This document shows positions 1-46,381 of a DNA stretch of 64,000 nt, one piece after another; position 1 is the stretch's first letter, and each line of letters starts with the position of its first letter. This stretch comes from Intrasporangiaceae bacterium URHB0013 (lineage in GTDB: Bacteria > Actinomycetota > Actinomycetes > Actinomycetales > Dermatophilaceae). The stretch is taken from assembly GCA_000620545.1 (NCBI GenBank), contig KK211150.1, positions 1 through 64,000 on the forward strand, read 5' to 3'. Under the pieces are notes generated by a model, which saw only the letters and a program-made list of their open reading frames with translations, made no database searches and had not been told where the DNA came from. Position numbers and translations under genes: made by a program.

Positions 1-330
1 CCCTCCACTCGAGTGGTCACTCCCGCACAGGCCCCCTCGGTACGGAACTGACCACTCGACGTTGACCGCTGAGGCGCGGACCCTCCACTCGAGGTCACTC
101 CCGCACAGGCCCCACCCGTACGGAACTGAGCACTCGACGTTGACCGCTGAGGCGCGGACCCGCCACTCGAGTGGTCACTCCCGCACAGGCCTCACCCGTA
201 CGGAACTGACCACTCGACGTTGACGCTGAGAAAGAGGCCAGTTCGCTCGAGTGGTCACTCCCGCACGGGGCTCACCGGTACGGAACTGAGCACTCGACGG
301 GGGGATCCCGTCGAGTGGGCAGTTCCCCAC
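1..330. repeat. Repeat family A, array 1 (cut by window start)
   Basis: About four units of roughly 79 bases. Each unit has CGAGTGGTCA on one side and TGACCACTCG (or TGAGCACTCG) on the other, with a TACGGAAC segment between, so each can fold into a hairpin. A GTTGACCGCTGAGGCGCGGACC-like spacer recurs at about 61, 140 and 221. The last copy, near 309-330, is a single inverted piece. No convincing gene lies here before the dehydrogenase start at 370. Related arrays lie at 8057, 13633 and 44707. Confidence 0.9.
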
Positions 331-369
331 CGCGGGTTTGAGCCCGGTGGCGGCGGGCAGGATGGGCCC

Positions 370-1386
370 ATGCGCGCGACGACGATCCATGCCCCCGGCG
401 ACATTCGCCTGACTGAGGTCCCCGACCCGACGATCGAGGCGCCGACCGACGCCATCGTGCGCGTCGTGGCCGGCTGTATCTGCGGCTCGGACCTCTGGCC
501 CTACCGGGGCGCCAACCCGATCACGGCCGGCTCGACCATCGGTCACGAGGCGGTCGGCGTCGTGGAGGAGGTCGGCGGCGACGTGCGCGAGATCAACAAG
601 GGCGACTTCGTCGTGATCCCGTTCGTCCACTGCGACAACACGTGCGCGCACTGCCGCGCCGGCATGACGTCGGTCTGCGACCACCAGGGCTGGACCGTCA
701 GTGGTCAGGCCGAGCTCGTCCGCGTCAACCAGGCCGACGGCAGCCTCGTGAAGACCGACGGCGTGCCCGACGATGCGCTCCTCCCGTCGCTGCTCACCCT
801 CGCCGACGTCATGGCGACCGGCTGGCACGCCGCGGTGTCCTCGCGGGTGCGCCCCGGTGGCACCGCCGTCGTCATCGGGGACGGCGCCGTCGGCCTCTGC
901 GGCGTCATCGCCGCCAAGGAGCTGGGCGCCGAGCGCATCGTCGCGATGTCGCGCCACGAGCCCCGACAGGCCCTGGCCCGCGAGTTCGGCGCGACGCATG
1001 TCATCGCCGAGCGCGACGACGCCGGCGTCGAGGCGGTCATAGAGCTGACCGACGGGGTCGGCGCCGACTCGGTACTCGAGTGCGTCGGCACCGACCAGTC
1101 GATGAAGACGGCCTTCCGCATCAGCCGCCCCGGCTCGACGGTTGGATTCGTCGGAGCCCCACACGGCGTCGAGCTGCCCGTCCGGCAGATGTTCGTCCGC
1201 AACGTCGGCCTCGCCGGTGGCATGGCCCCGGTCCGCACCTACCTGCCGGACCTGCTCGGGCGCGTCCTCGACGGCCGCATCGACCCGGGCCGGGTCTTCG
1301 ACCTGAGGCTCCCCCTCGACGAGGTCGCCGAGGGCTACCGCGCCATGGACGAGCGCCGCGCGATCAAGGTCTTCCTCCGCCCCTGA
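370..1386 (+). CDS. Zinc-dependent alcohol dehydrogenase (MDR family)
   Basis: A 338-residue medium-chain dehydrogenase/reductase, the usual length for this family. It should oxidise an alcohol (or reduce an aldehyde or ketone) with NAD(P) in the cytoplasm. The GHEAVGVVEEVG signature gives catalytic His59 and Glu60, and ICGSD gives Cys38. Four cysteines (88, 92, 95, 103) form the structural zinc lobe, with one extra residue between the first two. VVIGDGAVGL is the Rossmann glycine motif. The ATG at 370 is preceded by AGGA seven bases upstream; an in-frame extension back to 220 runs through repeat DNA and is rejected. Substrate cannot be read from sequence. Confidence 0.93.
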   Translation: MRATTIHAPGDIRLTEVPDPTIEAPTDAIVRVVAGCICGSDLWPYRGANPITAGSTIGHEAVGVVEEVGGDVREINKGDFVVIPFVHCDNTCAHCRAGMTSVCDHQGWTVSGQAELVRVNQADGSLVKTDGVPDDALLPSLLTLADVMATGWHAAVSSRVRPGGTAVVIGDGAVGLCGVIAAKELGAERIVAMSRHEPRQALAREFGATHVIAERDDAGVEAVIELTDGVGADSVLECVGTDQSMKTAFRISRPGSTVGFVGAPHGVELPVRQMFVRNVGLAGGMAPVRTYLPDLLGRVLDGRIDPGRVFDLRLPLDEVAEGYRAMDERRAIKVFLRP

Positions 1387-1466
1387 CCGACCCCGCCCGT
1401 GACCTCCCACGGGTGGACGCACTTCCCTCACGGCCGCCCGCTCCCGACCACGGAAGACCCGAGCGG

Positions 1467-1547
1467 GTATGCCGTGAGGGCACCAAGCCGTAGGCGCCCG
1501 CGCTCCGAAGCACCAGCGTGACCTGCCGACCCGAGCACACGGCATAC
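1467..1547. repeat. Inverted GTATGCCGT pair in intergenic DNA
   Basis: GGGTATGCCGTG at about 1465 and CACGGCATACCC at about 1538 are exact reverse complements separated by some 60 bases, between the dehydrogenase and the next hydrolase. They could form the base of a hairpin downstream of the dehydrogenase. The 1387-1576 gap otherwise shows no gene. See the finding on the GTATGCCGT nonamer. Confidence 0.7.
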
Positions 1548-1576
1548 CCAGTGGCACCCTCGACGACGGAGACGAC

Positions 1577-2251
1577 GTGACCCACGCCCGGCTCATCGAC
1601 ACGGCTGCCCCGAAGGCGCCGCGCGGCGTCGTGCTCGTGCTGCACGGAGGCGCAGCTCGACGAGAAGCCGCGCGGGTCAGCCCGACCCAGCTGTCGGTGC
1701 TGCGGATGGTGCCGATCGCCAGCCGGATCGCGCGGGCCGCGAAGGGCGAGCTGGCCGTGCAGCGGCTGCTCAACTCCACGCGCGGCTGGGACGCCCAACA
1801 CACGCCGGTCGACGACGTGCGCTGGGCCCTCGGCCAGGCCGTCGACCGCTTCGGCCCCGACCTGCCCGTGTGCCTCGTCGGGCACTCGCTCGGCGGGCGC
1901 GCCGCACTGCTCGCGGCCGGCGAGGGCTCCGTCGTCAGCGCCGTGGCGCTGAACCCGTGGGTCTACGCGAACGAGGGACGCCGCGACCTCACCGGCCGGC
2001 GGGTCCTCATCGTCCACGGCGCCGACGACCGCATCGCGCGGCCGACGAACTCGGCAGCCGTCGCCCGGGACCTTTCACGCACGGCGGACGTCGGCTACGT
2101 CACCGTCGAGGGCGGCAAGCACGCGATGCTGGGCCGCCGCAGCCTCTTCGACGGCCTCGCTGCCGACTTCGCCACCGCGACCCTCCTCGGTCGCGATCCC
2201 GGCGGCGTGGTCGCGCGGGTGCTCGACGGGGAGGCGTGGGTCGCCGTCTGA
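1577..2251 (+). CDS. Alpha/beta hydrolase
   Basis: A 224-residue hydrolase-fold protein with a complete likely triad: nucleophile Ser104 in GHSLGG, acid Asp150 (or Asp151) in HGADD, and His182 in GGKHAM. The N-terminal LVLHGG supplies the oxyanion region. No signal peptide, so cytoplasmic. The GTG start at 1577 has GGAG five bases before it. It is shorter than typical lipases and resembles dienelactone-hydrolase-like or carboxylesterase proteins; substrate unknown. It stands alone between the dehydrogenase and a DUF1801 gene on the same strand. Confidence 0.85.
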   Translation: MTHARLIDTAAPKAPRGVVLVLHGGAARREAARVSPTQLSVLRMVPIASRIARAAKGELAVQRLLNSTRGWDAQHTPVDDVRWALGQAVDRFGPDLPVCLVGHSLGGRAALLAAGEGSVVSAVALNPWVYANEGRRDLTGRRVLIVHGADDRIARPTNSAAVARDLSRTADVGYVTVEGGKHAMLGRRSLFDGLAADFATATLLGRDPGGVVARVLDGEAWVAV

Positions 2252-2435
2252 GGGCACATCACCGGCGGAGCGAGCACCGCACGATTTCCGGTTGAGCGCA
2301 CGGATAGGATGGTGTTTCGTAGGTTTATGACCGTTTGGTCAGCGAATGCGTGCTTACTTTGCAGTCGTCCGTTTCCCCGAATACAGTCGTACCACCCCTC
2401 CAACGACCGGTCCGGAACTGAAGTGAGGACCAGGA
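2252..2435 (+). promoter_or_regulatory. AT-richer promoter region with small inverted repeat
   Basis: This gap is markedly less GC-rich than its surroundings. At 2328-2341 it carries TGACC-gttt-GGTCA, a short perfect inverted repeat that could be an operator for the DUF1801 gene at 2436. No clear -35/-10 pair can be fixed. Confidence 0.35.
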
Positions 2436-2810
2436 TTGGCCCCGAGATTTGCGTCCGTCGATGACTACATCGCCTCCTACCCCGAGGAGACGCGAACTCA
2501 GCTTGCGGGGGTCCGCCGCACGATCCGCGAGGTAGCCCCTCACGCGGGCGAGAAGATCAGCTACGGCATGGCGACGTTCACGGTCGACGGCAAGCCGCTC
2601 ATCTACTACGCCGGCTGGAAGAACCACGTCGGCCTCTACCCGGTGCCGACGGGCGATGCGCAGTTCGAGGAGGCGATCAGCCCCTACCGCCGCGCCAAGG
2701 ACACCGTGCGTTTCCCGATCATCCGGCCGGTCCCGCTCCACCTCGTCTCCGAGATCACCGCGCTCTGCCTCAAGCGCCGGGCCGCGGTCTCCGAGGGCCA
2801 CGACGCCTGA
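2436..2810 (+). CDS. DUF1801 (YdhG-like) protein
   Basis: A 124-residue DUF1801 protein. Family features are the EKISYGMATF segment and the YYAGWKNHVGLYP core, followed by KDTVRFP. The fold is small and cytoplasmic with no proven reaction; relatives are linked to iron or stress responses without firm evidence. The start is a TTG at 2436, chosen because GAGGA ends six bases upstream and the domain begins at once; no ATG or GTG fits as well. A second family member lies at 40674-41063 on the other strand (about 35 percent similar by eye), so the genome keeps at least two. Confidence 0.85.
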   Translation: MAPRFASVDDYIASYPEETRTQLAGVRRTIREVAPHAGEKISYGMATFTVDGKPLIYYAGWKNHVGLYPVPTGDAQFEEAISPYRRAKDTVRFPIIRPVPLHLVSEITALCLKRRAAVSEGHDA

Positions 2811-2885
2811 CGCGTGACGCCTGGACGCCGGACCCGCTGCGGCGACAGGCGGCCGCGGCGATGGGGTCGAGCGCACCCTAGGGCG

Positions 2886-3269
2886 TCAGGTCTGGAGGAC
2901 GGACAGGACGTTGCCGGCGGGGTCGGTGAACCACGCGATGAGCGGGCCGCCCTTGCGGAAGATGCCCTTCGCGTCGGTCTCGCCCGGCGTGCCCTCGTAC
3001 TTCTCGAAGACGACGCCCCGGCGCGTCAGCTCATCGACGGCGGCCTCGATGTCGTCGACCGGGAAGTTGAGGATCGTGAAGGTCGCCGGCTCGTGGTTCG
3101 GCTTGGGGTAGATGAGGGTCGGGCGGTCGCCGCCTTCACCGGCGAGGTGGAGCGTGAGCATGCCGTTCTCCTCGGTGACGCGCAGCCCGAGGGTCTCGGC
3201 ATAGAACGCCTTGGCCGCGGGGATGTCGTCGACGGAGAAGCCGCTGAACGCGTGGGAGCTTGACAGCAC
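2886..3269 (-). CDS. VOC family (glyoxalase-like) protein
   Basis: A 127-residue vicinal-oxygen-chelate protein with the two beta-alpha-beta-beta-beta modules: [21 protein letters not shown] near the N-terminus and [18 protein letters not shown] in the middle, ending [14 protein letters not shown]. Such proteins bind a metal and act as lyases, dioxygenases or antibiotic-resistance proteins; which applies here cannot be told. The GTG start at 3269 has GAGAGGA about seven bases upstream. Its 3' end faces the DUF1801 gene, and its promoter shares the 3270-3503 gap with the CHRD gene. Confidence 0.88.
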
Positions 3270-3503
3270 GTCGGTCCTCTCTCCGGGGCGCGGTGCGCGC
3301 CCGCTGAGTCCCAGTCAAGACCTGCGGGTGTCGCGATGGTGCCGCTTCCGCCGAGATTCTGCAGGTCCAGGCCCTCATTTCGGTGGAACCCCAATCCAGC
3401 AGGGCCGCGGCGACGAACCCCCGCCCGGAGATGGTCGACGACGACCCCCGTCCGAGCACACGCACGATGGACGGCTTTGTCTCCTCGTCAAGGAGGAAAA
3501 CAG

Positions 3504-4283
3504 ATGCGCACGACCACCACTCGGATCGCCGGCGCCAGCTTCGCGGCAGCCGCCGCCCTGGCACTCAGCATCGGACCCGCGTTCGCGGCCGACGGCTTCG
3601 TCAGCGCCAACCTCAAGCCCGTCGCCGGCAACGGTGTCGACGGCAGTGGCACCGCCATGGTCGAGGTCCAGGGCAACAAGATCACCGTCACGATGGCTGC
3701 CAACGGCCTGCTCCCCGACAACCCGCACGCTGCGCACATCCACTTCGGCGCCGCAGCCCGCCACGAGTGCCCCGTCCTCTCCGACGACAAGAACGGCGAC
3801 GGCCACCTCAACACGACCGAGGGCGGCCCGGCCTACGGCGACGTCGTCGTCTCCCTCACGAAGACCGGCGACACGAGCCCCAAGTCGGCTCTGGCCATCG
3901 ACCGCTTCGACACCGCGCCCGGCGGCAAGCTGACCTACCAGCGTGGCAGCATCAAGGTCTCGAGCACCATCGCCAAGGCCATCACCGCCGGCGAGTCCGT
4001 CGTCGTCATCCACGGTGTCGACCACAACGAGGACGGCAAGTACTCCGGCGACACCAAGAGCGACCTCGACCCGAAGCTGCCGACCGAGGCGACCGACCCG
4101 GCCTTGTGTGGCGCCCTGCGCGTCGCGCCTGCGGGTGGCATGCACACCGGCGGTGGCGTCGCCGCTGACGGTCTCAAGAGCGGCGGTCAGAACGAGGCCC
4201 TCATGCTCGTCGGTGGCGGCGCACTGCTGGCCGCGGCCGGAACCGGCGCCTTCGCCGCCCGTCGCGCCCGCTCGCGCGCCTGA
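3504..4283 (+). CDS. Secreted CHRD-domain protein with C-terminal membrane anchor
   Basis: A 259-residue exported protein. Residues 1-28 form a signal peptide (RTTTTR, then a hydrophobic Ala-rich core, AFA-AD cleavage). The body is a CHRD domain with HAAHIHFG and the later SVVVIHGVDHNEDGKYSG segment. The C-terminus has a hydrophobic span (about 232-250) and an RRARSRA basic tail, as in sortase substrates, but I see no LPxTG motif before it. AGGAGG lies seven bases before the ATG. The next gene is a class F sortase, a pairing that suggests cell-wall display. Function of CHRD domains in bacteria is unknown. Confidence 0.88.
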   Translation: MRTTTTRIAGASFAAAAALALSIGPAFAADGFVSANLKPVAGNGVDGSGTAMVEVQGNKITVTMAANGLLPDNPHAAHIHFGAAARHECPVLSDDKNGDGHLNTTEGGPAYGDVVVSLTKTGDTSPKSALAIDRFDTAPGGKLTYQRGSIKVSSTIAKAITAGESVVVIHGVDHNEDGKYSGDTKSDLDPKLPTEATDPALCGALRVAPAGGMHTGGGVAADGLKSGGQNEALMLVGGGALLAAAGTGAFAARRARSRA

Positions 4284-4303
4284 TCGAGCGGACCGGATCC
4301 CCG

Positions 4304-5720: not shown

Positions 5721-5732
5721 AGAGGTACACGC

Positions 5733-6665
5733 GTGAACTCTGAGAACATTCGCGGTCGCCATCGTGCGCCCGGCCGCCACAACCCCCTCAACGAACTCAA
5801 GCTCCTCGCCCGTGAGTCGGCTCAGCCGGCCATGAAGGCGGGCGCCGTCGTCGCTGCCACCGGTGGACTGGTCGCCACCTTCGCCAACCCGGCGAGCGCC
5901 GACACCCTGTCACCCGCCTCGGGTGACGTCGCCGCTGCTGCCGGCATCGACTCGGCGGGCCCGGCCGTCGTCGGCCCCGCGAAGGCTGCTGCTCCGGCCG
6001 CGTCGACCGCGCTGTCCAAGATCGGCTACGCCCCGGCCGTGCAGAAGGCGGTCGCCCAGCGCGTCGGTCAGCCGAAGCCCCAGGTCATCGAGGACGTCAA
6101 GGTCAAGACCGAGCGCGCTGCCGCCAAGGCCGCCGCCACCAGGGCCGCCTCCAAGGCGGCCGCCGCCAAGGCTGCCGCGAAGAAGGCCGCTGCCGAGCGC
6201 AAGGCCACGACGGCGCGCGCCTCGCGTGACCTGACGCGCCGCACGCTGACGACGAGCACCTCGTCGAGGAAGGCGAGCAGCAACACCTCCGTCCCGCGCG
6301 CCTCCTCGGGCACGCACGCCTCGCGCAACTGGGCCACCCCGGGTCAGTGCACGTGGGGCGCCCTGAGCAAGTGGTACCAGTCCGAGGGGTACTACCCCGG
6401 CGGCTGGACCGGAAACGCCATGGCGTGGTCCTCGGGCGCAGCCTCGGCTGGCTACACCGTGAGCGGCACGCCGCGCACGCGCTCGATCCTCGTCATGCAG
6501 CCCGGCGTCCACGGCTCCTCGAGCGTCGGCCACGTCGCCTGGGTGACCGGCGTCAACGGCAACGAGGTGACGATCATCGAGATGAACGCCCTCGCCGGTG
6601 CGTACAACTACAACACGCGCACGCTGACCGACGGCCCCGGCATGAGGTACATCTACGCGCCGTGA
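5733..6665 (+). CDS. Exported CHAP-domain cell-wall hydrolase
   Basis: A 310-residue secreted protein. Its N-terminus is a long signal region (basic GRHRAPGRHNPLNELK, hydrophobic 36-55, cleavage near PASA). Residues 60-195 are an Ala/Lys-rich, probably coiled linker and a Ser/Thr-rich tract. Residues 199-310 form a CHAP amidase/endopeptidase domain with Cys206 (GQCTW), His267 (GHVAWV) and Glu283 (IIEMN). It should cut peptidoglycan peptides outside the cell. GTG start with GGAGAGG seven bases ahead. Control by the c-di-AMP riboswitch links its expression to cell-envelope state. A strong hairpin follows. Confidence 0.93.
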   Translation: MNSENIRGRHRAPGRHNPLNELKLLARESAQPAMKAGAVVAATGGLVATFANPASADTLSPASGDVAAAAGIDSAGPAVVGPAKAAAPAASTALSKIGYAPAVQKAVAQRVGQPKPQVIEDVKVKTERAAAKAAATRAASKAAAAKAAAKKAAAERKATTARASRDLTRRTLTTSTSSRKASSNTSVPRASSGTHASRNWATPGQCTWGALSKWYQSEGYYPGGWTGNAMAWSSGAASAGYTVSGTPRTRSILVMQPGVHGSSSVGHVAWVTGVNGNEVTIIEMNALAGAYNYNTRTLTDGPGMRYIYAP

Positions 6666-6976: not shown

Positions 6977-8065
6977 GTGTCCACGGCCTTCGAGAGCATC
7001 CGCATCGGCCGCTGGGACCTTCCCCAGCGTTTCGTCATGGCACCGCTGACGCGCAACCGCGCGGGGCAGGGCCAGGCGCCGACCACGCTCAACGCCGAGT
7101 ACTACGGCCAGCGCGCGAGCGCCGGCCTTCTCATCACCGAGGGCACCCAGCCGAGTGCCGTCGGCCAGGGCTACCTCGACACCCCCGGCCTGCACTCCGA
7201 CGAGCAGGTCGCCGGCTGGCGCCTCGTGGCCGACGCCGTGCACGCGGGCGGCGGTCACGTCGTCGTGCAGCTCATGCACGCCGGGCGGGTGGCCCACCCC
7301 GACAACAAGGGCGGGCTGGAGAGCGTGGCCCCGAGCGCCATCGCGGCCCCCGGGAAGATCGTGACCCCGAGCGGTGAGCAGCCGTATGCCGTCCCGCGCG
7401 CCCTCGAGACCGACGAGATCCCCGCGCTCGTGGCGGAGTTCGTCCACGCTGCGCGCCAGGCCGTCGCGGCCGGGCTCGACGGCGTCGAGATCCACGCCGC
7501 CAACGGCTACCTGCCGCACCAGTTCCTCGCGCCCTCGAGCAACGAGCGCACCGACGGCTACGGCGGCTCGCCCGAGGCGCGGGCCCGGCTCGTCGTCGAG
7601 ATCACGACGGCCGTGGCCGAGGCGATCGGCGCCGAGCGCGTCGGCATCCGCATCTCGCCCGCGCACAACATCCAGGGCGTCCTCGAGCAGGACGAGGCCG
7701 ACACCGCCGCGACCTACGAGTCGCTCGTCGAGGGCATCGCGCCGCTCGGGCTCGCCTACCTCAGCATCCTCGGCGACCCCGAGTCCGACATCGTCCGCGA
7801 CCTCCGCAAGCGCTTCGGCGGGCCGGTCATCCTCAACACCGGCTTCGGCAAGGTGACCGAGCTGGCCGACGTCGAGGACATCCTCGAGCGCGATCTCGGC
7901 GACCTCGTCGCGGTGGGGCGCGAGTTCCTCGCCAATCCGGACCTCGTCCGCCGGTGGCGCGAGGGCGCTCCCCTCAACGAGCCCAACCCGCAGACCTTCT
8001 ACGGCGGCGGCGCCGAGGGATACACCGACTACCCCGCCCTCCCTGAGGCACCCGTAGGAAGTTGA
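6977..8065 (+). CDS. Old Yellow Enzyme family ene-reductase (NemA-like)
   Basis: A 362-residue FMN-dependent oxidoreductase of normal family length. It should reduce activated C=C bonds of enones, nitro-alkenes or nitrate esters with NAD(P)H. MAPLTRNRA near residue 21 is the start of the FMN barrel. VEIHAANGYLPHQF gives the substrate-binding His173/Asn176 pair, followed by SSNERTDGYGGS. IGIRISP and the LNTGFGK phosphate-binding segment follow. The GTG at 6977 has GAGGAG seven bases upstream, so the longer in-frame extension is rejected. Its stop codon lies inside the first copy of repeat array 2. Confidence 0.93.
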   Translation: MSTAFESIRIGRWDLPQRFVMAPLTRNRAGQGQAPTTLNAEYYGQRASAGLLITEGTQPSAVGQGYLDTPGLHSDEQVAGWRLVADAVHAGGGHVVVQLMHAGRVAHPDNKGGLESVAPSAIAAPGKIVTPSGEQPYAVPRALETDEIPALVAEFVHAARQAVAAGLDGVEIHAANGYLPHQFLAPSSNERTDGYGGSPEARARLVVEITTAVAEAIGAERVGIRISPAHNIQGVLEQDEADTAATYESLVEGIAPLGLAYLSILGDPESDIVRDLRKRFGGPVILNTGFGKVTELADVEDILERDLGDLVAVGREFLANPDLVRRWREGAPLNEPNPQTFYGGGAEGYTDYPALPEAPVGS

Positions 8066-8290
8066 GCACTCGACGGGGACCCGCCCCGTCGAGTGCTCAA
8101 TTCCGTACGGCCCCGTCGACTGCTCACTTCCGTACGCCCCGTCGAGTGCTCAGTTCCGTACGCCCCCGTCGAGTGCTCAGTTCCGTACGCCCCGTCGAGT
8201 GCTCAGTCCGTGCGCCCCGTCGAGTGGTCAGTTGCGTACGTGCCCTCGAGGGGTCGGTTGCGGACCCGCACTCGAGTGGGCGCATCCGCC
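8057..8290. repeat. Repeat family A, array 2
   Basis: About eight copies of the core TCGAGTGCTCAGTTCCGTAC at 27-28 base spacing, mostly in one direction, with the first copy (8063-8075) inverted so that the outer parts can pair. It lies between two convergent genes, so it may serve as or surround a two-way terminator. Copies decay toward 8250-8290. Confidence 0.92.
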
Positions 8291-8302
8291 CGGCGGGGTG
8301 TA

Positions 8303-8839
8303 TCAGGTGGGTTCGGGTGGGTCCTCGCCCGAGACGATCGGGTCGCCGAGGGGACGCTGGACCCACGTGACGTCGTGCGAAGCGCCGAACTTCCAGCCGA
8401 TGTCGCGGTAGGTGCCGACCGGCTCGAAGCCCATCGCCGCGTGCAGCCGACCGCTCGCCTCGTTGGGCTGGGTCATCCCGGCGGCCGCCATCCGGTAGCC
8501 GCGGGCAGCAAGCCGTTCGAGCAGGGCCTCGTAGAGGCGGCGGCCACCCCCGCGTCCGCGCCGATCAGCCGCGAGGTAGATCGACACCTCGCACGACCAC
8601 CGGTACGCGGCGCGCTCCTTGAAGGGGCCGGCATACGCGTACCCGACGACCACGCCGTCGTCCTCGAGCACGAGGAACGCGTAGCGTTCCTGCGCCTTGG
8701 CGATTCGGCGCTCCAGCTCCGCGACGTCGGGCGGCTCCGTCTCGAAGGTGATCGTCGTCCCGGTGGCGTAAGGGGCGTAGATGGCGGCGCAGGCGGCCGC
8801 ATCCGCCGCGGTGGCGTCGCGGATCACTCGCTCGGGCAT
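8303..8839 (-). CDS. GNAT N-acetyltransferase (phosphinothricin acetyltransferase-like)
   Basis: A 178-residue GNAT enzyme of the PAT/MnaT branch. Its N-terminus IRDATAADAAACAAIYAPYA and TTITFETEPP match that group. The acetyl-CoA binding motif is RRGRGGGRRLYEALLERL, followed by NEASGRLHAAMGFEPVGTYRDIGWKFG. Members acetylate phosphinothricin, methionine sulfone or sulfoximine, or similar amino acids. The start ATG at 8839 has TAGCAT exactly six bases upstream, which suggests a leaderless message. Convergent with the Old Yellow Enzyme gene. Confidence 0.9.
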   Translation of the reverse strand: MPERVIRDATAADAAACAAIYAPYATGTTITFETEPPDVAELERRIAKAQERYAFLVLEDDGVVVGYAYAGPFKERAAYRWSCEVSIYLAADRRGRGGGRRLYEALLERLAARGYRMAAAGMTQPNEASGRLHAAMGFEPVGTYRDIGWKFGASHDVTWVQRPLGDPIVSGEDPPEPT

Positions 8840-8845
8840 TCCCGG

Positions 8846-11510: not shown

Positions 11511-12125
11511 GTGACTTCAGCGACGAGCACCACGACCGGGCCGGGCATCACGGAGGATCTCCTGCGCTACCTCCAGCAGGGGCGCGACGGGCTGATCCGA
11601 GCCCTTGAGGGGCTCGACGACTACGACGTGCGCCGCCCCCTGACGCCCAGCGGCAGCAACCTGATCGGCCTCGTCAAGCACGTCGCGGGCGTCGAGCTCG
11701 CCTACCTCGGCGACGCAGTCGGGCGACCGTCGGGCGAGCGGCTGTCCTGGGTCGAGGACGGCTCGATTTGGGAGTCCGCCGACATGTGGGCGACGGCGGA
11801 CGAGTCCCGGGACGACATCGTCGCGCTCTACCGCCGGGCGTGGGCGCACTGCGATGCCGTCGTGCGCGAGCTGCCCCTCGACGCGCCCGCAACCGTCGAC
11901 TGGTGGCCCGAGGAACGGCGGCACACGACGCTCGGCTCACTGCTCGTCCGCTGCGTGGCCGAGGTGTCGCAGCACGCCGGGCACGCCGACATCCTGCGCG
12001 AGTTGATCGACGGACGTGGCGGGCGGGACCAGGCCGACATGGGCGACGCCGCCTGGTGGACCTCCTACGTCGCCCGCATCCAGGCTGCCGCCGACGCCCA
12101 CCGACCCGCCGTGGCCGGCTCATGA
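11511..12125 (+). CDS. DinB/DUF664 family protein
   Basis: A 204-residue four-helix-bundle protein of the DinB-like (DUF664) group. LLRYLQQGRDGLIRALEGLDDYDVRRPLTPSG is the first helix pair, and the metal-binding histidine pattern includes His in VKHVAGVE and the later CVAEVSQHAGHADILRE. Relatives include mycothiol- or bacillithiol-dependent transferases. The GTG at 11511 fits a leaderless start; another in-frame GTG lies at 11502. The gene overlaps the sulfatase by four bases (ATGA). Confidence 0.88.
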   Translation: MTSATSTTTGPGITEDLLRYLQQGRDGLIRALEGLDDYDVRRPLTPSGSNLIGLVKHVAGVELAYLGDAVGRPSGERLSWVEDGSIWESADMWATADESRDDIVALYRRAWAHCDAVVRELPLDAPATVDWWPEERRHTTLGSLLVRCVAEVSQHAGHADILRELIDGRGGRDQADMGDAAWWTSYVARIQAAADAHRPAVAGS

Positions 12126-13615
12126 CCGCGCGCCGCCCCAACATCGTCTTCCTGCTCAGCGACGACCACGCCGCGCACGCCATCGGCACCTACGGTTCCG
12201 TCGTCAATCGCACACCGCACATCGACGCGGTCGCGGCCTCCGGCGTACGCCTCGACAACCTCTTCGCGACGAACTCGCTGTGCTCGCCGAGTCGGGCCTC
12301 GATCCTCACCGGCACCTACAGCCACGTCAACGGCGTGACGACGCTCGACACCTTCATCGACGCCTCCCAGCCCACGTTCGTCACCGCCCTGCGCGAGGCG
12401 GGCTACCGCACGGCGTTCGTCGGGAAGTGGCACATGGGTCAGGGCTCGAGCGACGGCGTCGACCACGACCCGCAGGGCTTCGACCGGTGGGACGCCCTCA
12501 TCGACCAGGGTGAGTACCACGACCCCCGGTTCCTCTCCCGCGACGGGCTGCGCGTCGAGCCGGGCTACGCGACCGACCGCATCACCGACCTCGCCATCGA
12601 CTGGGTCGAGTCGCTCGACGACTCCGGCAGCGACGCGCCGTGGTGCGTGCTCGTCTGGCACAAGGCGCCCCACCGGCCGTGGGAGCCCGACGCGGCCCAC
12701 GCGGGGTTGCATGCCGCCGACGGGCCTCTGGGTGGCACGCCGATCCCCGTGCCCGCGACGTTCACCGACGACCTGACCGGCCGGTCCGACACGGCGCGGC
12801 GGGCCGCCATGCGGGTCGCCGACCACCTCACGGCGGAGGACCTCAAGCAGCCGGTGCCACAGGGGCTCTCGCCCGACGAGGAGGCGCTGTGGAAGTACCA
12901 GCGCTACATGGAGGACTACCTCGCGTGCGTCGCGTCCGTCGATGACAACGTCGGGCGGCTGACGTCGTGGCTCGCCGACCGGGGCGAGCTCGACGACACG
13001 ATCGTCATCTACTCCTCGGACCAGGGTTTCTTCCTCGGCGACCACGGCTGGTTCGACAAGCGCTTCATGTACGAGGAGTCGATCCGGATGCCGTTCGTCC
13101 TGTCCTACCCGCGCGCCGTCGCGCCCGGGCAGGGGCTCGACCGAATCGTCACGAACGTCGACATCGCGGCGACCCTGCTCGAGGCGGCCGGGATCGAGGT
13201 GCCGGAACGGATGCAGGGCCGCTCGTTCTGGGGCGACCTCACGTCTCCGGCTGGGGCACCGCGTGACCGGGAGACGGAGGGCTTCTACTACCGCTACTGG
13301 ATGCACGACGACGGCAGCCACCAGGTCGGAGCCCACTACGGCTACCGCACGCACCGCTACACGCTGATCTTCTTCTACAACGACGGGCTGGGGCTGCCCG
13401 GCTGCTCGGACCGGCGGTTTGCGCAGGAGTGGGAGCTCTACGACCTCGATGCCGACCCGGAGGAGCTCGTCAACGTCGCCGACGACCCGGCCTACGCGGC
13501 CGTGCGCGACGAGCTGGAGGCGCGGTTGTGGCTGGCGCAGCACGAGCTCGGCGACGAGCCCCACCCCGACCAGCCCGTCCCCCGCCTCATCGCCGACGGC
13601 ACGCGCACCCCCTGA
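12122..13615 (+). CDS. Type I sulfatase
   Basis: A 497-residue sulfatase/alkaline-phosphatase-superfamily enzyme that hydrolyses sulfate esters. RRPNIVFLLSDDH gives the metal-binding Asp pair. LCSPSRASILTG is the signature in which Cys54 must be turned into formylglycine by a separate enzyme not in this window. GKWHMG and YSSDQGFFLGDHGWFDK supply further active-site residues. No signal peptide, so it acts in the cytoplasm, unlike many relatives. Its ATG overlaps the DinB stop, so translation is coupled. Choline-sulfatase or N-sulfoglucosamine-type substrates are possible. Array 3 follows the stop. Confidence 0.93.
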   Translation: MTARRPNIVFLLSDDHAAHAIGTYGSVVNRTPHIDAVAASGVRLDNLFATNSLCSPSRASILTGTYSHVNGVTTLDTFIDASQPTFVTALREAGYRTAFVGKWHMGQGSSDGVDHDPQGFDRWDALIDQGEYHDPRFLSRDGLRVEPGYATDRITDLAIDWVESLDDSGSDAPWCVLVWHKAPHRPWEPDAAHAGLHAADGPLGGTPIPVPATFTDDLTGRSDTARRAAMRVADHLTAEDLKQPVPQGLSPDEEALWKYQRYMEDYLACVASVDDNVGRLTSWLADRGELDDTIVIYSSDQGFFLGDHGWFDKRFMYEESIRMPFVLSYPRAVAPGQGLDRIVTNVDIAATLLEAAGIEVPERMQGRSFWGDLTSPAGAPRDRETEGFYYRYWMHDDGSHQVGAHYGYRTHRYTLIFFYNDGLGLPGCSDRRFAQEWELYDLDADPEELVNVADDPAYAAVRDELEARLWLAQHELGDEPHPDQPVPRLIADGTRTP

Positions 13616-13632: not shown

Positions 13633-14008
13633 CAGCTCGAGTGGTCGTTTCCGTTCCGTCCGGGAGTGACCATTCGACGTGGAGGGACTCGAGTGGTCGT
13701 TTCCGTTCCGTCCGGGAGTGACCACTCGACCTGGACGGGAAAGGAAGTCGAGTGGTCGTTTCCGTTCCGTAGGAAAGTGAGCACTCGACGGGGTGGGGAC
13801 TCGAGTGGTCGTTTTCGGTTCCGTACGGGAGTGACCACTCGACGGGGACGGGGACTTGAGTGGGCGTTTCCGTTCCGTAGGAAAGTGAGCACTCGACGGG
13901 GAGGGGGCTCGAGTGGGCGTTTCCGTTCGGTACGGGAGTGAGCACTCGACGGGGACGGAGTCGAGTGGGCGTTTCCGTTCCGTAGGAAAGTGGGCACTCG
14001 ACGGGGTG
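13633..14008. repeat. Repeat family A, array 3
   Basis: Seven units of about 53 bases. Each reads CTCGAGTGG-TCGTTTCCGTTCCG, then a short bridge, then GTGACCACTCGAC, so each unit folds into a hairpin with 9-bp arms. The sequence between the arms differs from array 2 (TTTCCGTTCCGT instead of TCAGTTCCGTAC) while the outer arms are kept. It fills the gap between the convergent sulfatase and CHAD genes. Confidence 0.93.
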
Positions 14009-14065: not shown

Positions 14066-14953
14066 TCAGGCGAGGGCGGCGTCGATCGAGTCCCAGGCCC
14101 GCTGCTCGATCGCCGCCATCTCCCGCTGCTCGTCGGCGTCGAGGTGGCCGAGGAGGAACGCCGCGGCCTCGCCGACCGCCTCGTCGAGCGCGAGGTGTCG
14201 CAGCGTGGCCCGGGTCATGACGACGTCGTGGTAGGCGCCCAGGGCCGACTGGACCGCCTTGGCGCGCTTCCCGATCTGGCGGGTCTTCTTGCCGGTGACG
14301 GGGCGTGCGGTCTCCGCCGCGTAGCGCACCCGCTTCGCCGCCTTGCGCACCTCGTGGAGCCGGGCACCGTGCTCGGTCACGTCGTGCGGGGCGTCCGGGT
14401 CGGAGACGTCGACGGGCATCCGCGCAGCCTCCACGCGCTTGGCGAAGCGGCGCTGCTCGCGTCGCAGCCGCCGGCGGGCAACCTTCCGGGCGTCGAGCTC
14501 TGACGTGTCGGTCAGGGGCGGGCTCGAGACGAGCTCGTCGAGCCGGATGGTCATCGCGGCGTACCGCGTGGATCCGAGCGTCTCCTCGACGACGTCCCCC
14601 GCCGCCGCGGCATCGAGCCGCAGCCGGGCTCGCAGGCCGGCGACCGCCTCGTCCTCGAGGCCGACGTCGGCGGCCTCGAGCAGGCGGTCGGTGTGGTCCG
14701 TGGCCACCTCGGCGTCGCGGGCCTCCCCGAGCCGGCGCGAGGCCGACTTCAGCTCGTCGCGCATCGGCTCGGTCACGGCCGTGTCGAAGACCGGACGGTA
14801 CGTTGCGAGCAGGGAGCGCAGGCGGCGCATCGCCACCCGGAGGTCGTGCACACCGGTCGACCGGTCGCCGCCGCGGACGGCCGCCTCGGCCGCATCGAGG
14901 GCGTCCCGTTGGTCGACGAGGCGCTGCTGCACGAGGGTCCCGACGGACGGCAT
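14066..14953 (-). CDS. CHAD domain protein
   Basis: A 295-residue all-helical CHAD protein. VHDLRVAMRRLRSLLATYRPVF is the first conserved helix with basic residues, and LHEVRKAAKRVRYAAE the equivalent in the second half. CHAD domains bind polyphosphate through these arginines and histidines and localise to polyphosphate granules. No CYTH domain is attached. The ATG at 14953 sits inside an ACGGCATAC nonamer, and TAGATA lies six bases upstream, suggesting a leaderless message. Confidence 0.92.
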   Translation of the reverse strand: MPSVGTLVQQRLVDQRDALDAAEAAVRGGDRSTGVHDLRVAMRRLRSLLATYRPVFDTAVTEPMRDELKSASRRLGEARDAEVATDHTDRLLEAADVGLEDEAVAGLRARLRLDAAAAGDVVEETLGSTRYAAMTIRLDELVSSPPLTDTSELDARKVARRRLRREQRRFAKRVEAARMPVDVSDPDAPHDVTEHGARLHEVRKAAKRVRYAAETARPVTGKKTRQIGKRAKAVQSALGAYHDVVMTRATLRHLALDEAVGEAAAFLLGHLDADEQREMAAIEQRAWDSIDAALA

Positions 14954-40618: not shown

Positions 40619-40673
40619 CCACGGGCTGAGTCCGCGTGGCTGAGCCCCGGCCAGGCGATGTCAGCCAAGGTCG

Positions 40674-41063: not shown

Positions 41064-41198
41064 CGGTCCCCCTCGTCGTGGGTGCGGTGACCCAGCCCAG
41101 TGTGGCCGACAGCCATGCGCTCGGCCATGGTCGATTCGTCGGACAGGGCGGTGGCGATCACCTACGGTGATCCGAACACCAGGGGATCAGGGAGCACG

Positions 41199-42227: not shown

Positions 42228-42284
42228 CAAGCCGCAGCGTCGAAGCCGTCGAGCGCCCGCGCGGTCATGCGACGCACCTCAACG

Positions 42285-42548: not shown

Positions 42549-42564
42549 GGTCTGGCCGGCGGAG

Positions 42565-43329
42565 TCAGTCGTCGAGCTCGAGGATGCAGGCGGTGCCGAC
42601 GTCGACGAAGCCGATCCGGCGGTAGATGTCGACCGCGGCGTCGGACCCGGCCGACAGGAAGACGACCTCGACGCCCTGCTCGCGACAGACCGCGACGAGC
42701 GTGCTGGTGATCGCCGTCCCGTGGCCACGCCCCCGGTGGCCGGGCGGCACGGCGATCCCCATCAGCTCGGCCACGTCACCCCGCGGCGCGGCGGACCCGG
42801 CGCCACAGAGACGGTTGCCCTCGAACGAGGCGACGACGACGAGGTCGCCGCTCTCCATCAGCTCGGGCCGCTTGCCCGGGTCCTTCGGCTCGACCTCGTC
42901 GCGCCCGGCGAAGCCCGCCGACACCGACCCGAGGGCCAGCGACAGGTGCGGCTCGGCCGGGTGCAGCGCCCGGGCCCGCGGGTCAGCGACCACTGCGACG
43001 TCGGACGGCATGACGAGCAGTGGGTAGCGGTGCGGCTCGTGGCCGGCCGATCGCAGGGCGGGGAGCAACGACGGAGTCACCTCGTCCACCCACTCGACCG
43101 CCCGCGGCACGTCCAGCTCCCGCTGGCGCTCGAGCACACGGCATACGTCCTCGCGGGTGAGCACGCCGTGGGCACCGAGCCGCGGCCGCGCGTAGAACTG
43201 CCACCCCGTCCCCTCGTCCGCGACGAAGAGGGTGAACGGGCCGACCTCCTCGACCGTCGCGGCGGTGCGCGGGACGCAGTCGTAGTACGCCTCGATGCCG
43301 TCCAGCCGCGCGTCGTGAGCTCGCCCCAT
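42565..43329 (-). CDS. GNAT N-acetyltransferase
   Basis: A 254-residue protein. The first 120 residues are a divergent GNAT-like half, and the last 100 a canonical GNAT domain with VAELMGIAVPPGHRGRGHGTAITSTLVA and LSAGSDAAVDIYRRIGFVDVGTACI. The substrate is unknown. The ATG at 43329 is the first that keeps the N-terminal half; the in-frame extension upstream to 43569 is antisense to the DHFR-like gene and rejected. Confidence 0.88.
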   Translation of the reverse strand: MGRAHDARLDGIEAYYDCVPRTAATVEEVGPFTLFVADEGTGWQFYARPRLGAHGVLTREDVCRVLERQRELDVPRAVEWVDEVTPSLLPALRSAGHEPHRYPLLVMPSDVAVVADPRARALHPAEPHLSLALGSVSAGFAGRDEVEPKDPGKRPELMESGDLVVVASFEGNRLCGAGSAAPRGDVAELMGIAVPPGHRGRGHGTAITSTLVAVCREQGVEVVFLSAGSDAAVDIYRRIGFVDVGTACILELDD

Positions 43330-43378
43330 CGAGCCACCATGACAGCCGGTGGCGGGCGCGAGCGACCGGATTACGGCG

Positions 43379-43972
43379 TCAGCCGCGCAGCACCGGGTAG
43401 ACGAGGTGCGTGACGCGCTCGCCCTCGACGACGGTCGTCGGGTTGCCGAGCACGACCTGGCCGGCGGCCTCGGTGAAGTAGGGCCGCCCCACGCCGAGGA
43501 AGCACGGGACGAGGTCGATCGCCACCTCGTCGAGCAGGTTCTCGGCGAGGCACTGGCTCGCGATCTCACCGGCCGCGACCCCCACGTCAGCGTCGCCCGC
43601 GATCTCCCGCGCCCGGCCCACCGCCGCGTGCACGCCGCCGGTCACGAACTCGACCGTGCCGCCGGGATATCCCCAGCCGACCGGCGGCTCGTGGGTCAGC
43701 ACGACGACGGGAACGCCGAGCGGATGCGTGCCCTTCCACCCGTCGGTGAGGTCGAAGAGTCGCCGCCCGACGACCAGCGCACCGAGCCGGCCCACCCACT
43801 CGCGCCAGTAGTCCGCGTCGGTCTGCGTCAGGTGGAAGGTCATGTCGCCGCCTGCCGACTCCCACGGGACGTCGCCGGCCTCGTACCAGTCGAAAAGCGG
43901 CCCCACCTCGTCGTTCGGTCCGGCGACGAAACCGTCCAGCGACGTCGATGCCGACGACACGACCTTGCCCAT
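43379..43972 (-). CDS. DHFR/RibD C-terminal-like reductase
   Basis: A 197-residue reductase: VSSASTSLDGFVAGPNDEVGPLFDWY, GALVVGRRLFDLTDGWKG and VAAGEIASQCLAENLLDEVAIDLVPCFLGVGRPYF are family blocks. It should use NADPH. AGGAG lies six bases before the ATG. Just upstream, 43978-44020 carries four tandem GGCTCTGCG units. Confidence 0.9.
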   Translation of the reverse strand: MGKVVSSASTSLDGFVAGPNDEVGPLFDWYEAGDVPWESAGGDMTFHLTQTDADYWREWVGRLGALVVGRRLFDLTDGWKGTHPLGVPVVVLTHEPPVGWGYPGGTVEFVTGGVHAAVGRAREIAGDADVGVAAGEIASQCLAENLLDEVAIDLVPCFLGVGRPYFTEAAGQVVLGNPTTVVEGERVTHLVYPVLRG

Positions 43973-43979
43973 GGCACTC

Positions 43980-44020
43980 TCCTGGCTCTGCGGCTCTGCG
44001 GCTCTGTGGCTCTGCGGCTC
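43980..44020. repeat. Short tandem repeat (GCGGCTCTG)
   Basis: Four to five copies of a 9-10 base unit, CTCTGCGG, between the VWA gene and the DHFR-like gene. It lies in the region where the DHFR-like promoter should be. Confidence 0.8.
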
Positions 44021-44032
44021 TCGCGGTTTCGG

Positions 44033-46381
44033 TCAGCGGCGTCCGCGCCGGGTGCGCAGGTAGTCGGCGACGACGTACTCGCCGAGCCGCGAGATGTCGG
44101 GCGTGAAGACGCGGCCACCGGCTCGCCGGGCCACCGCGTCGACGAACCGCGCCAGGCCTGGGTCGTCGCCGAGCATGAAGACGTTGAGCTGCGCCCCCGC
44201 GCGCCGCAGCTCGTCGACCTGCGCGACCGTCGCGCGGATGGTCTCCTGCGTCGCCGGCCAGTGGAACGACGGCCGTCCGTCCACCTCGATGTGCGCCGTC
44301 GGCTCACCGTCGGTCACGACGAGGACGACCGGCTCGGCGTCGGGGTGCCGCCGCAGGTGCCGCGACGCGAGCATGAGCGCGTGCTGGAGGTTGGTCCCCT
44401 GCACCCATTCCGGCTCGGCCTCGGCCAGCTCGGTCGGCGTCAGCTTGCGAGCCGCGAGGTTGAAACCGATGATCTGCAGCGCGTCGTGCCGGAACCGGGT
44501 CTGCACGAGATGCGAGAGCGCCAGCGCGGTCTGTTTCATCGGCCCCCACCGCCCCTCGTGCAGCATCGAGAACGACATGTCGACGCACAGCGCCACTGCC
44601 GCGACCGAGCGCCGCTCCGTCTCTGCCACCTCGAAGTCCTCGACGAGCAGCTCCACCCCGCCGCTCGGTGAGGCCGGTGCTCCGCGCCGGTATGCCGTGT
44701 GCCCGGCCCCCGTACCGAAGTGACCACTCGACGCGGCGGGGGCCACCGGCTCCGTACCGAAGTGACCACTCGACGCGGCAGGGGCCACCTGGCCCGTACC
44801 GAAGTGACCACTCGACGCGGCAGAGTCCACCGGGCCCGTACCGAAGTGACCACTCGACGCGGCAGGGGCCACGGGCTCCGTACCGAAGTGAGCACTCGAC
44901 GCGGCAGAGTCCACCTGGCCCGTACCGAAGTGAGCACTCGACGCGGCAGGGGCCACGGGCTCCGTGCCGAAGTGAGCACTCGACGCGGCAGGCCCTGCCG
45001 TGCGCTCACTCGAGTGGTCGGTTCGGTGCGCTCGGGCGCTGCGCTGCACGGCGTTCGAGACGGTCCGGACCGTGTCGATCGGCAGCTCGTCACCGAACTC
45101 CCACTGTCGCGTCAGTCCGGTCGGCTCGTCGGCCTGGCCGGCGGCCCGGTCGTCGTGGTCGCCCCGACCAGCGGCCTCGACCCGCTCGAAGACGCGCTTG
45201 AGGGCGGTCTCGCCGAGACGCCGCACGGCCCGGGGCGTGAGGCGCAACCCGTCGTCGCCGCGCGAGACGTAGCCCTGGCGTTCGAGCTCGCGCTCGAGCT
45301 GGCGCAGCGCCTCCATGTCGCGGGCGGCGTCGGCGCCGAGGTACTGCTCGAGCCGTTCGACGTCGACGTCGTCGAGGGTCGCGCCGAAGTAGCCCTGGCC
45401 GAGCTGTTCGCCAAGCTGCTCGAGGTCGGCGAGCTCGGCGACGGCGCCGACGGCGTCGCCGTAGCCCATCGGCTCCCCACCCTGACCCGGCTGCACCGGA
45501 CTGCGCCGGTCGAGCCCGGGTCGCAGCGCGCGGAGGTTGTCGGAGAGCTGCGCCATCTGCGAGGCGAGGTCCGGGTCACCGAGCGCGTCGGACATGAGCT
45601 GGCCCAGCTGCTCGCGCTGCTCGCGGGTGAGGGACGCCATGAGCCGGTCGGCGGCGGCCTGCCGCCGCGCCAGGGCGTCGATGAGCTCGTCGACGTTCTC
45701 GGGCCGCTCGGGGAAGAGGTCGCCGTGCTTGTCCATGAACTCGCGGAACTGGTCCTCGGTGTCCTCCCCGCGGGCGTGCGCGGCGAGGAGCTGGTTGAGA
45801 TCGGCGAGCATGTCCTTGACGGCCTGCATCGCCTCGGGGTCGTTGCCCGACAGCACCTGCTTGAGCCCCTCGAACTGTGCGCCCACGACCTCACGCTGGA
45901 GCATCTGCTGGATCTGCTCGTAGGTCTGCTGCGCCTCCGGCGAGTGCCACTCGTAGTCCGCGAGCGCGCGCACCGCACCGGCGACGTCGTCGGGGATCGT
46001 CGCGAGGTCCATCTCGGCAAGGCGGGCGTCGTCACCGTCCTCGCCGGCGAGGGTGTCGCGCTCCTCGGCGAGCGCCTGGTCGAGCATCGCGCGCACCTGG
46101 TCGAGCGTGCCGCCGAGGTCACCGCGTCGACGCGCGGCCTCGCGCAGACGGCGTACGCGTTCGGCGAGGTCGTCGAGTCCGCGGCGCCCGTCCATGCCCC
46201 GGCGCATCAGCTCGCGCAGCGCCTCTCGCAGGGACCCACCCGACAGGACGTCCTGCCCGACCTCGTCGAGCACGGAGCGCACGTCGAAGGGCGGGGCGAG
46301 CGGGTCGGGGCCCCCGGACCACGGCGCGTACCGGAACCGCCCGTGCACCTCGTCCCCGTCGCGCGGCGTCACCGTGCCCAC
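44033..46381 (-). CDS. VWA-domain protein, partner of the AAA ATPase; carries family A repeats in frame
   Basis: A 782-residue soluble protein. Residues 35-410 are a long helical region like that of CoxE/ViaA-type proteins. Residues 464-558 hold seven 14-residue repeats (AASSAHFGTEPVAP and variants). Residues 575-782 are a VWA domain with a metal site DMSFS (Asp601, Ser603, Ser605), VVLVVTDGEPTAH and VFMLGDDPGLARFVD. With the ATPase gene upstream it should form a MoxR/chelatase-like remodelling pair. The 42-base repeats match the intergenic family A element, so the repeat has entered a gene. GTG start. Confidence 0.88.
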   Translation of the reverse strand: MGTVTPRDGDEVHGRFRYAPWSGGPDPLAPPFDVRSVLDEVGQDVLSGGSLREALRELMRRGMDGRRGLDDLAERVRRLREAARRRGDLGGTLDQVRAMLDQALAEERDTLAGEDGDDARLAEMDLATIPDDVAGAVRALADYEWHSPEAQQTYEQIQQMLQREVVGAQFEGLKQVLSGNDPEAMQAVKDMLADLNQLLAAHARGEDTEDQFREFMDKHGDLFPERPENVDELIDALARRQAAADRLMASLTREQREQLGQLMSDALGDPDLASQMAQLSDNLRALRPGLDRRSPVQPGQGGEPMGYGDAVGAVAELADLEQLGEQLGQGYFGATLDDVDVERLEQYLGADAARDMEALRQLERELERQGYVSRGDDGLRLTPRAVRRLGETALKRVFERVEAAGRGDHDDRAAGQADEPTGLTRQWEFGDELPIDTVRTVSNAVQRSARAHRTDHSSERTAGPAASSAHFGTEPVAPAASSAHFGTGQVDSAASSAHFGTEPVAPAASSGHFGTGPVDSAASSGHFGTGQVAPAASSGHFGTEPVAPAASSGHFGTGAGHTAYRRGAPASPSGGVELLVEDFEVAETERRSVAAVALCVDMSFSMLHEGRWGPMKQTALALSHLVQTRFRHDALQIIGFNLAARKLTPTELAEAEPEWVQGTNLQHALMLASRHLRRHPDAEPVVLVVTDGEPTAHIEVDGRPSFHWPATQETIRATVAQVDELRRAGAQLNVFMLGDDPGLARFVDAVARRAGGRVFTPDISRLGEYVVADYLRTRRGRR
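44707..45026 (-). repeat. Repeat family A, array 4 (inside the VWA gene)
   Basis: Seven units of 42 bases, each with CCGTACCGAAGTGACCACTC or the GAGCACTC variant, then GACGCGGCA and a bridge. On the coding strand each reads AASSxHFGTxPVxx. A partial extra copy at 45000-45026 (CTCGAGTGGTCGGTTCG) encodes HRTDHSSERT. Because 42 is a multiple of three, the reading frame is kept. Confidence 0.93.

Follow-up and report, generated by a model that had tools for sequence, protein, structure and literature searches.

The question raised by the first 64,000 nucleotides of contig KK211150.1 of Intrasporangiaceae bacterium URHB0013 (C9:1-64000 in our numbering, hereafter the window) is what produced the four arrays of a short repeat that it carries, and with which protein these repeats are associated. 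The explanation favoured here, with a probability of roughly 0.7, is that the arrays are clusters of sites of about 20-22 bp bound by a partner nuclease encoded elsewhere in the same genome. This partner, predicted from a single gene framed by its own repeats, would combine an AbiEi-like N-terminal part with a C-terminal Vsr-like domain of the PD-(D/E)XK type (MTES_1575/DUF559), and would work with the arrays as the REP-associated tyrosine transposases (RAYTs) do with repetitive extragenic palindromic (REP) sequences.

The genome (G000; handles beginning with G, C and L stand for genomes, contigs and loci) comprises 4.57 Mb in 17 contigs, and its genus was taken as Terrabacter (Intrasporangiaceae in NCBI). 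The gene calls are our own codon-usage calls and not a curated annotation. A strict site definition was used first for the phasing analysis, then a looser one because the strict one missed copies of array 3.

An asymmetric site repeated mostly in phase with the DNA helix

The repeat core, TCGAGTGSTCANTTCCGTAC, with at most three mismatches, occurs 34 times in the 64 kb, where 0.05 matches are expected (100 shuffles), and the four arrays of the original prediction stand at the positions that it gave. With the same tolerance, a wider pattern, TCGAGTGNNCANTTCCGTAC, gives 139 matches in the whole genome versus nine for the reversed pattern. The core, searched for through the genome and the family, is present elsewhere in this genome and in relatives. 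The unit lengths first proposed (79, 28, 53 and 42 bp) are close to those returned by Tandem Repeats Finder (80, 26-27, 52 and 42 bp).

According to the looser definition, arrays 1 to 4 hold 8, 9, 14 and 8 sites, respectively. Array 1 (1-330), which is cut by the contig start, has its eight sites in the order +--+-+-+, with inward pairs 31 bp apart and units of 80 bp, in the dialect called A below. Array 2 (8054-8291) starts with one minus copy followed by eight plus copies every 25-27 bp, two units making 53 bp, and the end of the upstream gene runs into its first copy. Array 3 (13637-14001) consists of 14 alternating sites, 21-22 bp apart when inward and mostly 31-33 bp apart when outward (one distance of 38 bp), the unit being 52-53 bp. 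Array 4 (44712-45029, minus strand) has seven copies in direct order with a period of 42 bp and an eighth that is inverted, and forms an in-frame repeat of 14 amino acids (aa). The first description of the element as hairpin-forming therefore suits arrays 1 and 3, mainly alternating and built of inverted pairs, but not arrays 2 and 4, where direct order prevails.

The consensus of 263 sites from ten genomes, deduplicated within arrays, reads G-TCGAGTG-NN-CA-S-TT-Y-C-NNN-C-G, TCGAGTG and CA being fixed by the search and the remaining positions free. The unit is an asymmetric site of about 20 bp, found in inverted (inward), everted (outward) and direct order. Neighbouring sites appear to be spaced mostly by whole helical turns, as protein-binding sites would be. 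Indeed, in a set of 169 distances from 84 arrays of nine genomes, each distance class being counted once per array, the inward start-to-start distances cluster at 19-21, 28-31 and 50-52 bp, the outward ones at 31-34 and 41-44 bp, and those of direct pairs at 22, 31-34, 42-44 and 51-55 bp. For the 141 distances of 23-75 bp, R is 0.498 at a period of 10.5 bp and peaks at 0.505 at 10.8 bp. No set attains this among 20000 uniform or among 20000 jittered ones. With the strict sites, the periodicity peaks at 10.5 bp (0.5-bp grid). Because the 31-33 bp mode dominates and might carry the periodicity by itself, distances of 36-75 bp were tested separately: 36 of the 53 fall within 2 bp of whole turns from this mode where 20 are expected, with a best period of 10.5 bp. 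The phasing of these longer distances is strong for direct pairs (V = 0.59, n = 28) and moderate for inward pairs (V = 0.35, n = 11). Furthermore, 81 of 85 inward palindromes are 39-41 or 49-52 bp long, the 85 being the first places per genome, several of them from one array, with three unrelated-looking ones (G139, G191) excluded.

Predicted nuclease genes framed by the repeats

At two places of the genome (L086 and L075), arrays face each other around one segment. Both segments hold homologous open reading frames (ORFs), 53% identical, that the gene caller missed or cut: nuclease A (C9:85,354-86,352), outside the window and 21 kb past its end, and nuclease B (C14:110,612-111,628), also outside it. 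An ORF of G001 is 75% identical to the second of these, and all three lie between arrays. The absence of a transposase, asserted in the original prediction, holds for RAYTs and for the scanned genes of the window; elsewhere in the genome, however, the repeats frame a candidate gene for a cognate enzyme. An all-against-all BLAST of 245 genes near arrays, which sought a recurrent flanking gene family, returned ordinary genes and shared positions only; it missed the nuclease because the codon-usage caller had left out that ORF or called it too short.

With a profile of the three ORFs, relatives are found at E<=1e-15 in 145/186 family genomes. Scores over 430 bits are reached in G000 (twice), G001, G087, G088, G024, G005, G071, G023 and G137, and all ten of these top homologues (nine genomes) have inward-pointing sites on both sides. 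When sites within 800 bp were sought by script, 9/10 were scored as framed versus 2/830 control genes (genes of 700-1500 bp from the fetched stretches); the one missed is that of G023, where the sites are present but the called start falls inside the left array. In the wider family, an inverted pair of TCGA-type 16-mers is found at 41/50 loci versus 124/838 control genes, although some of the 41 look like chance, and the 11-mers shared across the gene are in moderate excess in inverted order (median 7 versus 2 in direct order, p=0.014, n=47).

Most members of the nuclease family are 300-350 aa long. In 41 aligned members, out of 51 loci, S193, E196, D229, E240, G243 and R259 are invariant, and Q242 is found in 36/41 at the position where K is usual for PD-(D/E)XK; the invariant residues, the acidic ones among them, are as expected of a putative PD-(D/E)XK nuclease. 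The Pfam families MTES_1575 and DUF559 match 12/41 and 4/41 members, respectively, weakly and in the C-terminal part. MTES_1575 is described as a Vsr-family restriction endonuclease in PMC3710099.

A companion DUF4262 gene accompanies the A-lineage loci of G000, G001, G024 and G137; that of G001 matches in two pieces in different frames (L221 2508-3014 and L222 about 980-1488).

Repeat dialects and enzyme lineages

The sites framing nuclease A are of the GGTCACTCCCGTAC type and those framing nuclease B of the CCCACTTCCCGAC type; the other arrays of the genome include both dialects. Of 20 arrays located away from the nucleases, 14 are nearer to A and three to B, and three tie, some margins being small. 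In a tree of 50 of the 51 proteins (one of 240 aa was dropped), the B nucleases of G000, G005, G087 and G088, which represent two genera, form one clade with support 100/99. The flank dialect is nearest to the arrays of its own host in G001, G005, G071, G023 (one site only) and G137, and comes second by 0.2 or less in G024 and G088. More distant lineages have other frame repeats: TCGAGAGGCCACGTCCGGCC in G006 and G007, TCGAAAGAGCAGTTCG in G023 and G089, and TCGAGTGAACAGAACACGCC in G193. In the own genome, TCGARAGGCCAAMGTT frames a third nuclease, with one such match in 256 kb of other stretches of this genome. This third gene (L251 2461-3450, G000:C14) lies between runs of its different repeat with a spacing of 32 bp.

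Protein identity and flank-repeat identity are correlated over 41 loci, which were chosen for having a repeat pair (Mantel r=0.526, 0/5000 permutations). Flank repeats are 46% identical between paralogues of the same genome (15 pairs) versus 75% between orthologues of different genomes (35 pairs). As far as sequences tell, the repeat dialect follows the nuclease lineage.

The same association is seen between genomes: at least four inverted pairs are found in 9/9 genomes with the top nuclease lineage versus 3/177 without it (p=4e-13), the line bounding the lineage (430 bits, in a gap from 434 to 403) and the four-pair line having both been drawn post hoc; at least one pair is found in 9/9 versus 8/177 (p=4e-11).

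The sites TCGAGTGGCCA... of G087 (L207, L209) depart from the TT-C type and resemble the repeats framing the second nuclease of that genome, which may represent a further lineage with dispersed copies.

Placement, gains and range

Placement was analysed for 66 multi-site arrays in stretches of five genomes, those of G000, G001 and G023 mostly picked around arrays and those of G024 and G088 being contiguous 400 kb. In this set, 59 arrays lie in called gaps, five in genes and two at contig edges. Convergent gaps hold 30/59 of the arrays, versus 173 among 926 gaps (p=7e-9), and divergent gaps 2/59; the median distance to a stop codon is 29 bp. The proportion in convergent gaps is 6/12 in G088 and 1/7 in G024, where the enrichment is not seen.

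The family was first thought to amplify within loci and to spread between them, and both are supported, the family being dispersed over the genome and gained at new loci between species. Direct neighbours share 690 identities at variable positions versus 581 +/- 14 when partners are shuffled within genomes; they are therefore more alike than expected, which indicates local tandem duplication as the mode of array growth. Array 3 (about 370 bp) is missing in the six corresponding gaps of G003, G007, G006, G008, G005 and G002. The place of array 2 holds one site in G001, two in G005 and none in G003. Some array positions are common to different genera. In the gap between rplI and a LacI gene, the A element is found in G000 and G001 and other sequence in G003 and G005.

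Array 4 falls within a coding sequence instead of a gap: it occupies, in frame, the linker of a von Willebrand factor A (vWA) domain protein (44033-46381, minus strand; 782 aa from the called start, in an open frame of 826 aa). In six of eight congeners (G001, G002, G003, G006, G007 and G008), the homologue is 666-683 aa long and free of sites; in G005 it has 704 aa and a founder pair of another dialect, and in G004 749 aa and a possible relic of sites. A second in-frame case is an inverted pair in the C-terminal linker of an 885-codon ORF (L076 3712-3783, G000:C9).

The inverted-pair pattern occurs in 17 of 186 genomes and 9 of 53 genera of the family, the reversed control in none. Dialects differ by genus: GT/CT..CCGTAC, GC..TCGTAC, CC..CCCGAC, TG..CCTGCC and GG..CGTCAC. 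Inverted pairs are found in 6/396 genomes order-wide, and the direct-order pattern class-wide in 1/394, the own one, in a sample that held hardly any array-rich relatives.

A phage or plasmid origin was rejected: array 3 has no match in phage and plasmid collections, and three patterns hit 0, 2 and 3 stretches of viral contigs, the two being single sites and the three unlike the family beyond the core. No relative of the nuclease was confirmed there.

The arrays of the window and their neighbour genes

Two of the arrays, 2 and 3, lie between convergent genes, as originally stated. Array 2 is located between an NADH:flavin oxidoreductase gene (6977-8065, plus), which ends in it, and a GNAT acetyltransferase gene (8303-8839, minus). 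Array 3 is located between a sulfatase gene (12122-13615, plus), on its upstream side, and a CHAD-domain gene (14066-14953, minus).

Array 1 adjoins a zinc alcohol dehydrogenase-like gene (370-1386, plus). Contig C10 likewise starts within such an array (C10:1-307), beside a pirin gene. As the orthologous dehydrogenase and pirin genes flank one array in G001 and G005, array 1 is probably part of one larger C9/C10 array that broke the assembly. The arrays in this gap differ in dialect between G000, where the contigs end in it, G001 and G005, and G003 has none at this place.

The sequence of the repeat was not recognised in the original prediction, and searches leave it so. An Rfam scan of the window gave no repeat-family match and only a c-di-AMP riboswitch, and neither a named element that matches it nor a report of the repeat family or of a nuclease partner appears among the matches listed in the open-licence literature, subscription papers being outside this scope. 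The riboswitch (ydaO/yuaA leader, RF00379; 5545-5729, plus) immediately precedes the gene of a CHAP-domain hydrolase (at 5733).

Weighing the favoured explanation

A DNA-binding nuclease that recognises the 20-mer would be the simplest account, because the sites are phased in several orientations, frame the enzyme gene and match it in dialect. Such a nuclease would bind its repeats in a cooperative manner, along a single face of the helix, and its nuclease domain would nick or cut at or near the sites. Repair would then duplicate sites within the array and now and then seed new arrays, and placement at 3' gene ends would be what selection tolerates. Globally, a nuclease of another superfamily would thus take the place of the HUH transposase in a REP/RAYT-like pair.

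A broader claim, on which we are evenly divided, would be that these elements constitute a new class of repeat-enzyme partnership without HUH transposases. In the AbiEi-like PD-(D/E)XK family of the 145/186 genomes, every lineage would be framed by TCGA-type repeats peculiar to it. From these repeats one or two lineages, in certain genomes, would have made helically phased, chromosome-wide arrays; enzyme and dialect would co-evolve, would switch at orthologous loci without change of place, and would write new in-frame peptide repeats into proteins.

Binding, cutting and mobilisation by the nuclease are inferred, and several observations weigh against the favoured explanation. The domain assignments are weak: the MTES_1575 matches are below the Pfam cut-off, those to AbiEi models have E from 1e-2 to 3e-7, the best PDB profile match is 3r3p ('Mobile intron protein') with E=0.15, and AlphaFold, run without relatives on a 313-aa truncated relative, gave a pLDDT (predicted local distance difference test) of 33. 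Array-poor genomes, too, have members of the wider nuclease family, and only the top-scoring lineage tracks the arrays. Besides the post hoc lines of that comparison, at least four pairs are found without such a lineage in G002, G070 and G034, of which G002 and G070 are incomplete (74% and 58%) and G034 is not, and two of the four pairs of G087 resemble its second-nuclease repeats and not dialect B. For G000a, G000b and G087a, the flank dialect is closer to arrays of other genomes than to the mixed set of the own host. As regards the sites, phasing is nearly absent among outward pairs at 36-75 bp (V=0.11, n=14), and the spacings of 26 bp in array 2 and of 49 and 78 bp in array 1 do not fit whole turns. 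The arms of inward pairs resemble each other a little more than expected by chance (p=0.033), and most arrays hold both orientations, only 12 of the 66 multi-site arrays having a single one by the looser definition. Finally, orthologous nuclease loci keep their chromosomal neighbours across several genera; being at the same chromosomal places, the nuclease gene itself must therefore move rarely.

The main rival is that the protein has a regulatory or defensive role and that the arrays are by-products. An AbiEi/Vsr-like protein would bind the repeats for self-regulation, perhaps as a defence or toxin-antitoxin-like device, and the arrays would be decoys, self-marks or remnants that are not mobilised. 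PADLOC AbiEi models match up to 22/41 members, within residues 8-200 in nine of the ten members scanned singly, which is the N-terminal part; some members also match the Hhe or PDC-S37 defence models weakly, and the stability of the nuclease loci over genera fits such a role. However, the arrays are found at 3' ends and in convergent gaps and not at promoters, the sites frame both ends of the gene even in members with one site per side, and gains such as those of arrays 3 and 4 are left unexplained, so that we consider this explanation rather unlikely.

It is improbable that the arrays act primarily as transcribed hairpins, such as the bidirectional terminators or 3' stabilisers that REPs have been proposed to be, with a secondary link to the nuclease. 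Their position shortly after stop codons, the presence of both orientations in most of them and the strong RNA folds of alternating arrays (z to -15) are in agreement with this role, and array 2, L087 and L141 also fold better than shuffles. However, the folds of array 4, L075 and L088 exceed those of shuffles little, if at all, and direct repeats are phased as well. Furthermore, the arms of 52 distinct inward pairs differ at 3.4/20 positions on average and are identical in three, and their identities at variable positions (395 versus 379.6 +/- 8.2 with partners shuffled within genomes, p=0.033) point to covariation that is at most weak. By these comparisons, inward arms are not kept complementary beyond a weak effect, and the hairpin is not supported as the conserved feature of the family. 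As for the 12 arrays with a single orientation, four have at most two sites and six of the remaining eight frame a nuclease gene.

Near-perfect, low-copy palindromes of 58-59 bp with the same TCGAGTGNNCASTTC arms exist in two other families (G266:C2:1073167; G488:C2:735345; G463:C1:550116 and 1791182; G398:C1:502567 and 2925337). Four of the six were seen between convergent called genes, which would suit an RNA hairpin, and the copies of G266 and G463 that share neighbour genes differ in both arms together.

It is highly improbable that the nuclease genes came to lie in array-prone gaps by chance or passively. Arrays are frequent in these genomes, and an array of G088 (L120 16872-16956) occupies the gap in which a nuclease of another lineage is found in G119 and G122, so that such gaps can be hot spots; but passive landing accounts neither for framing in 10/10 cases versus 2/830 control genes nor for a dialect that follows the lineage, other lineages being framed by other repeats.

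A classical REP/RAYT system, in which an IS200-type HUH transposase moves the repeats, is hardly credible in spite of a copy number, alternating clusters and 3' placement that resemble the bacterial interspersed mosaic elements (BIMEs) as these are presented in PMC3733652 and PMC2817692: the transposase family PF01797, looked for as the partner, is found in 0/14 chosen genomes, 12 of them array-bearing, and in a 58-genome sample it is absent from own-genus and own-family genomes and found in two genomes of other families, with 5/14 controls positive, and the sites have no conserved GTAG tag and, after their CGTC-type start, no stem of 8-9 bp. Sites of chromosomal architecture (matS-like), uptake sequences and gyrase sites were also considered as possible readings.

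Comparison with known systems

The system has the placement and the framing that characterise REP/RAYT pairs, and neither their defining enzyme nor their hairpin. As with REPs, BIMEs and REPINs (REP doublets forming hairpins) and their RAYT (TnpA-REP), more than 100 short copies are dispersed in the genome, clusters of alternating orientation are found, and 3' gene ends and convergent gaps are favoured; the REP/BIME-like behaviour foreseen from the window alone is borne out by these features together with local amplification and gains between species. The partner gene is also at a stable locus framed by the repeats, and a genome may have several types, each with its own enzyme. RAYT genes likewise keep their chromosomal neighbours. 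Unlike in REP/RAYT systems, no HUH/Y1 enzyme was found and the partner is a predicted PD-(D/E)XK nuclease. In contrast to a REP, the 20-mer is asymmetric and not itself a hairpin, and it forms direct-order arrays with helical-turn spacing. It has no GTAG terminal tag, the site end varying with the dialect (GTAC, CGAC, TGCC and others).

Another parallel is the CGTC-tagged REPs, which, in Di Nocera 2013 (PMC3733652), have no known RAYT partner, a stem of 8-9 bp and a loop of 4-5 nt, lie within genes in some cases, and are reported from Proteobacteria, Chlorobi, Bacteroidetes, Spirochaetes and Thermotogae. The present family is likewise REP-like without a known RAYT partner, and CG precedes TCGAGTG in 133/263 sites; in contrast to that class as described there, its tag is followed, by inspection, by a stem of 4-5 bp at most with a 2-nt loop. 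What moves RAYT-less REP-like repeats such as the CGTC class is given as an open question in PMC3733652, and the family described here would provide such repeats with a strong genetic partner from an unrelated enzyme superfamily. Its several natural dialects make specificity directly testable, and named strains of the genus exist in culture collections. DUF559/MTES_1575-like genes of unknown role would gain a concrete DNA target, and the in-frame arrays would offer a route from intergenic repeats to protein repeats.

With regard to the protein, two families are comparable. The nuclease shares with Vsr-like, or EDxHD, homing endonucleases (3r3p) a weak C-terminal profile similarity and conserved E, D, E, H and D positions; it differs from them in being framed by repeats and in its AbiEi-like N-terminal part, the similarity reaching E=0.15 only. 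AbiEi, the type IV antitoxin and DNA-binding regulator, binds long inverted repeats; the N-terminal part resembles its PADLOC models, but the nuclease has an additional C-terminal nuclease-like domain.

With regard to an autonomous insertion sequence, a gene with terminal inverted repeats at different loci, two observations point in opposite directions: inverted repeats flank the gene at 41/50 loci, but the orthologues share chromosomal places. Finally, tandem repeats of the mycobacterial interspersed repetitive unit/variable number tandem repeat (MIRU/VNTR) type and Rickettsia palindromic elements are comparable in behaviour, through tandem arrays between genes and insertion in frame within them.

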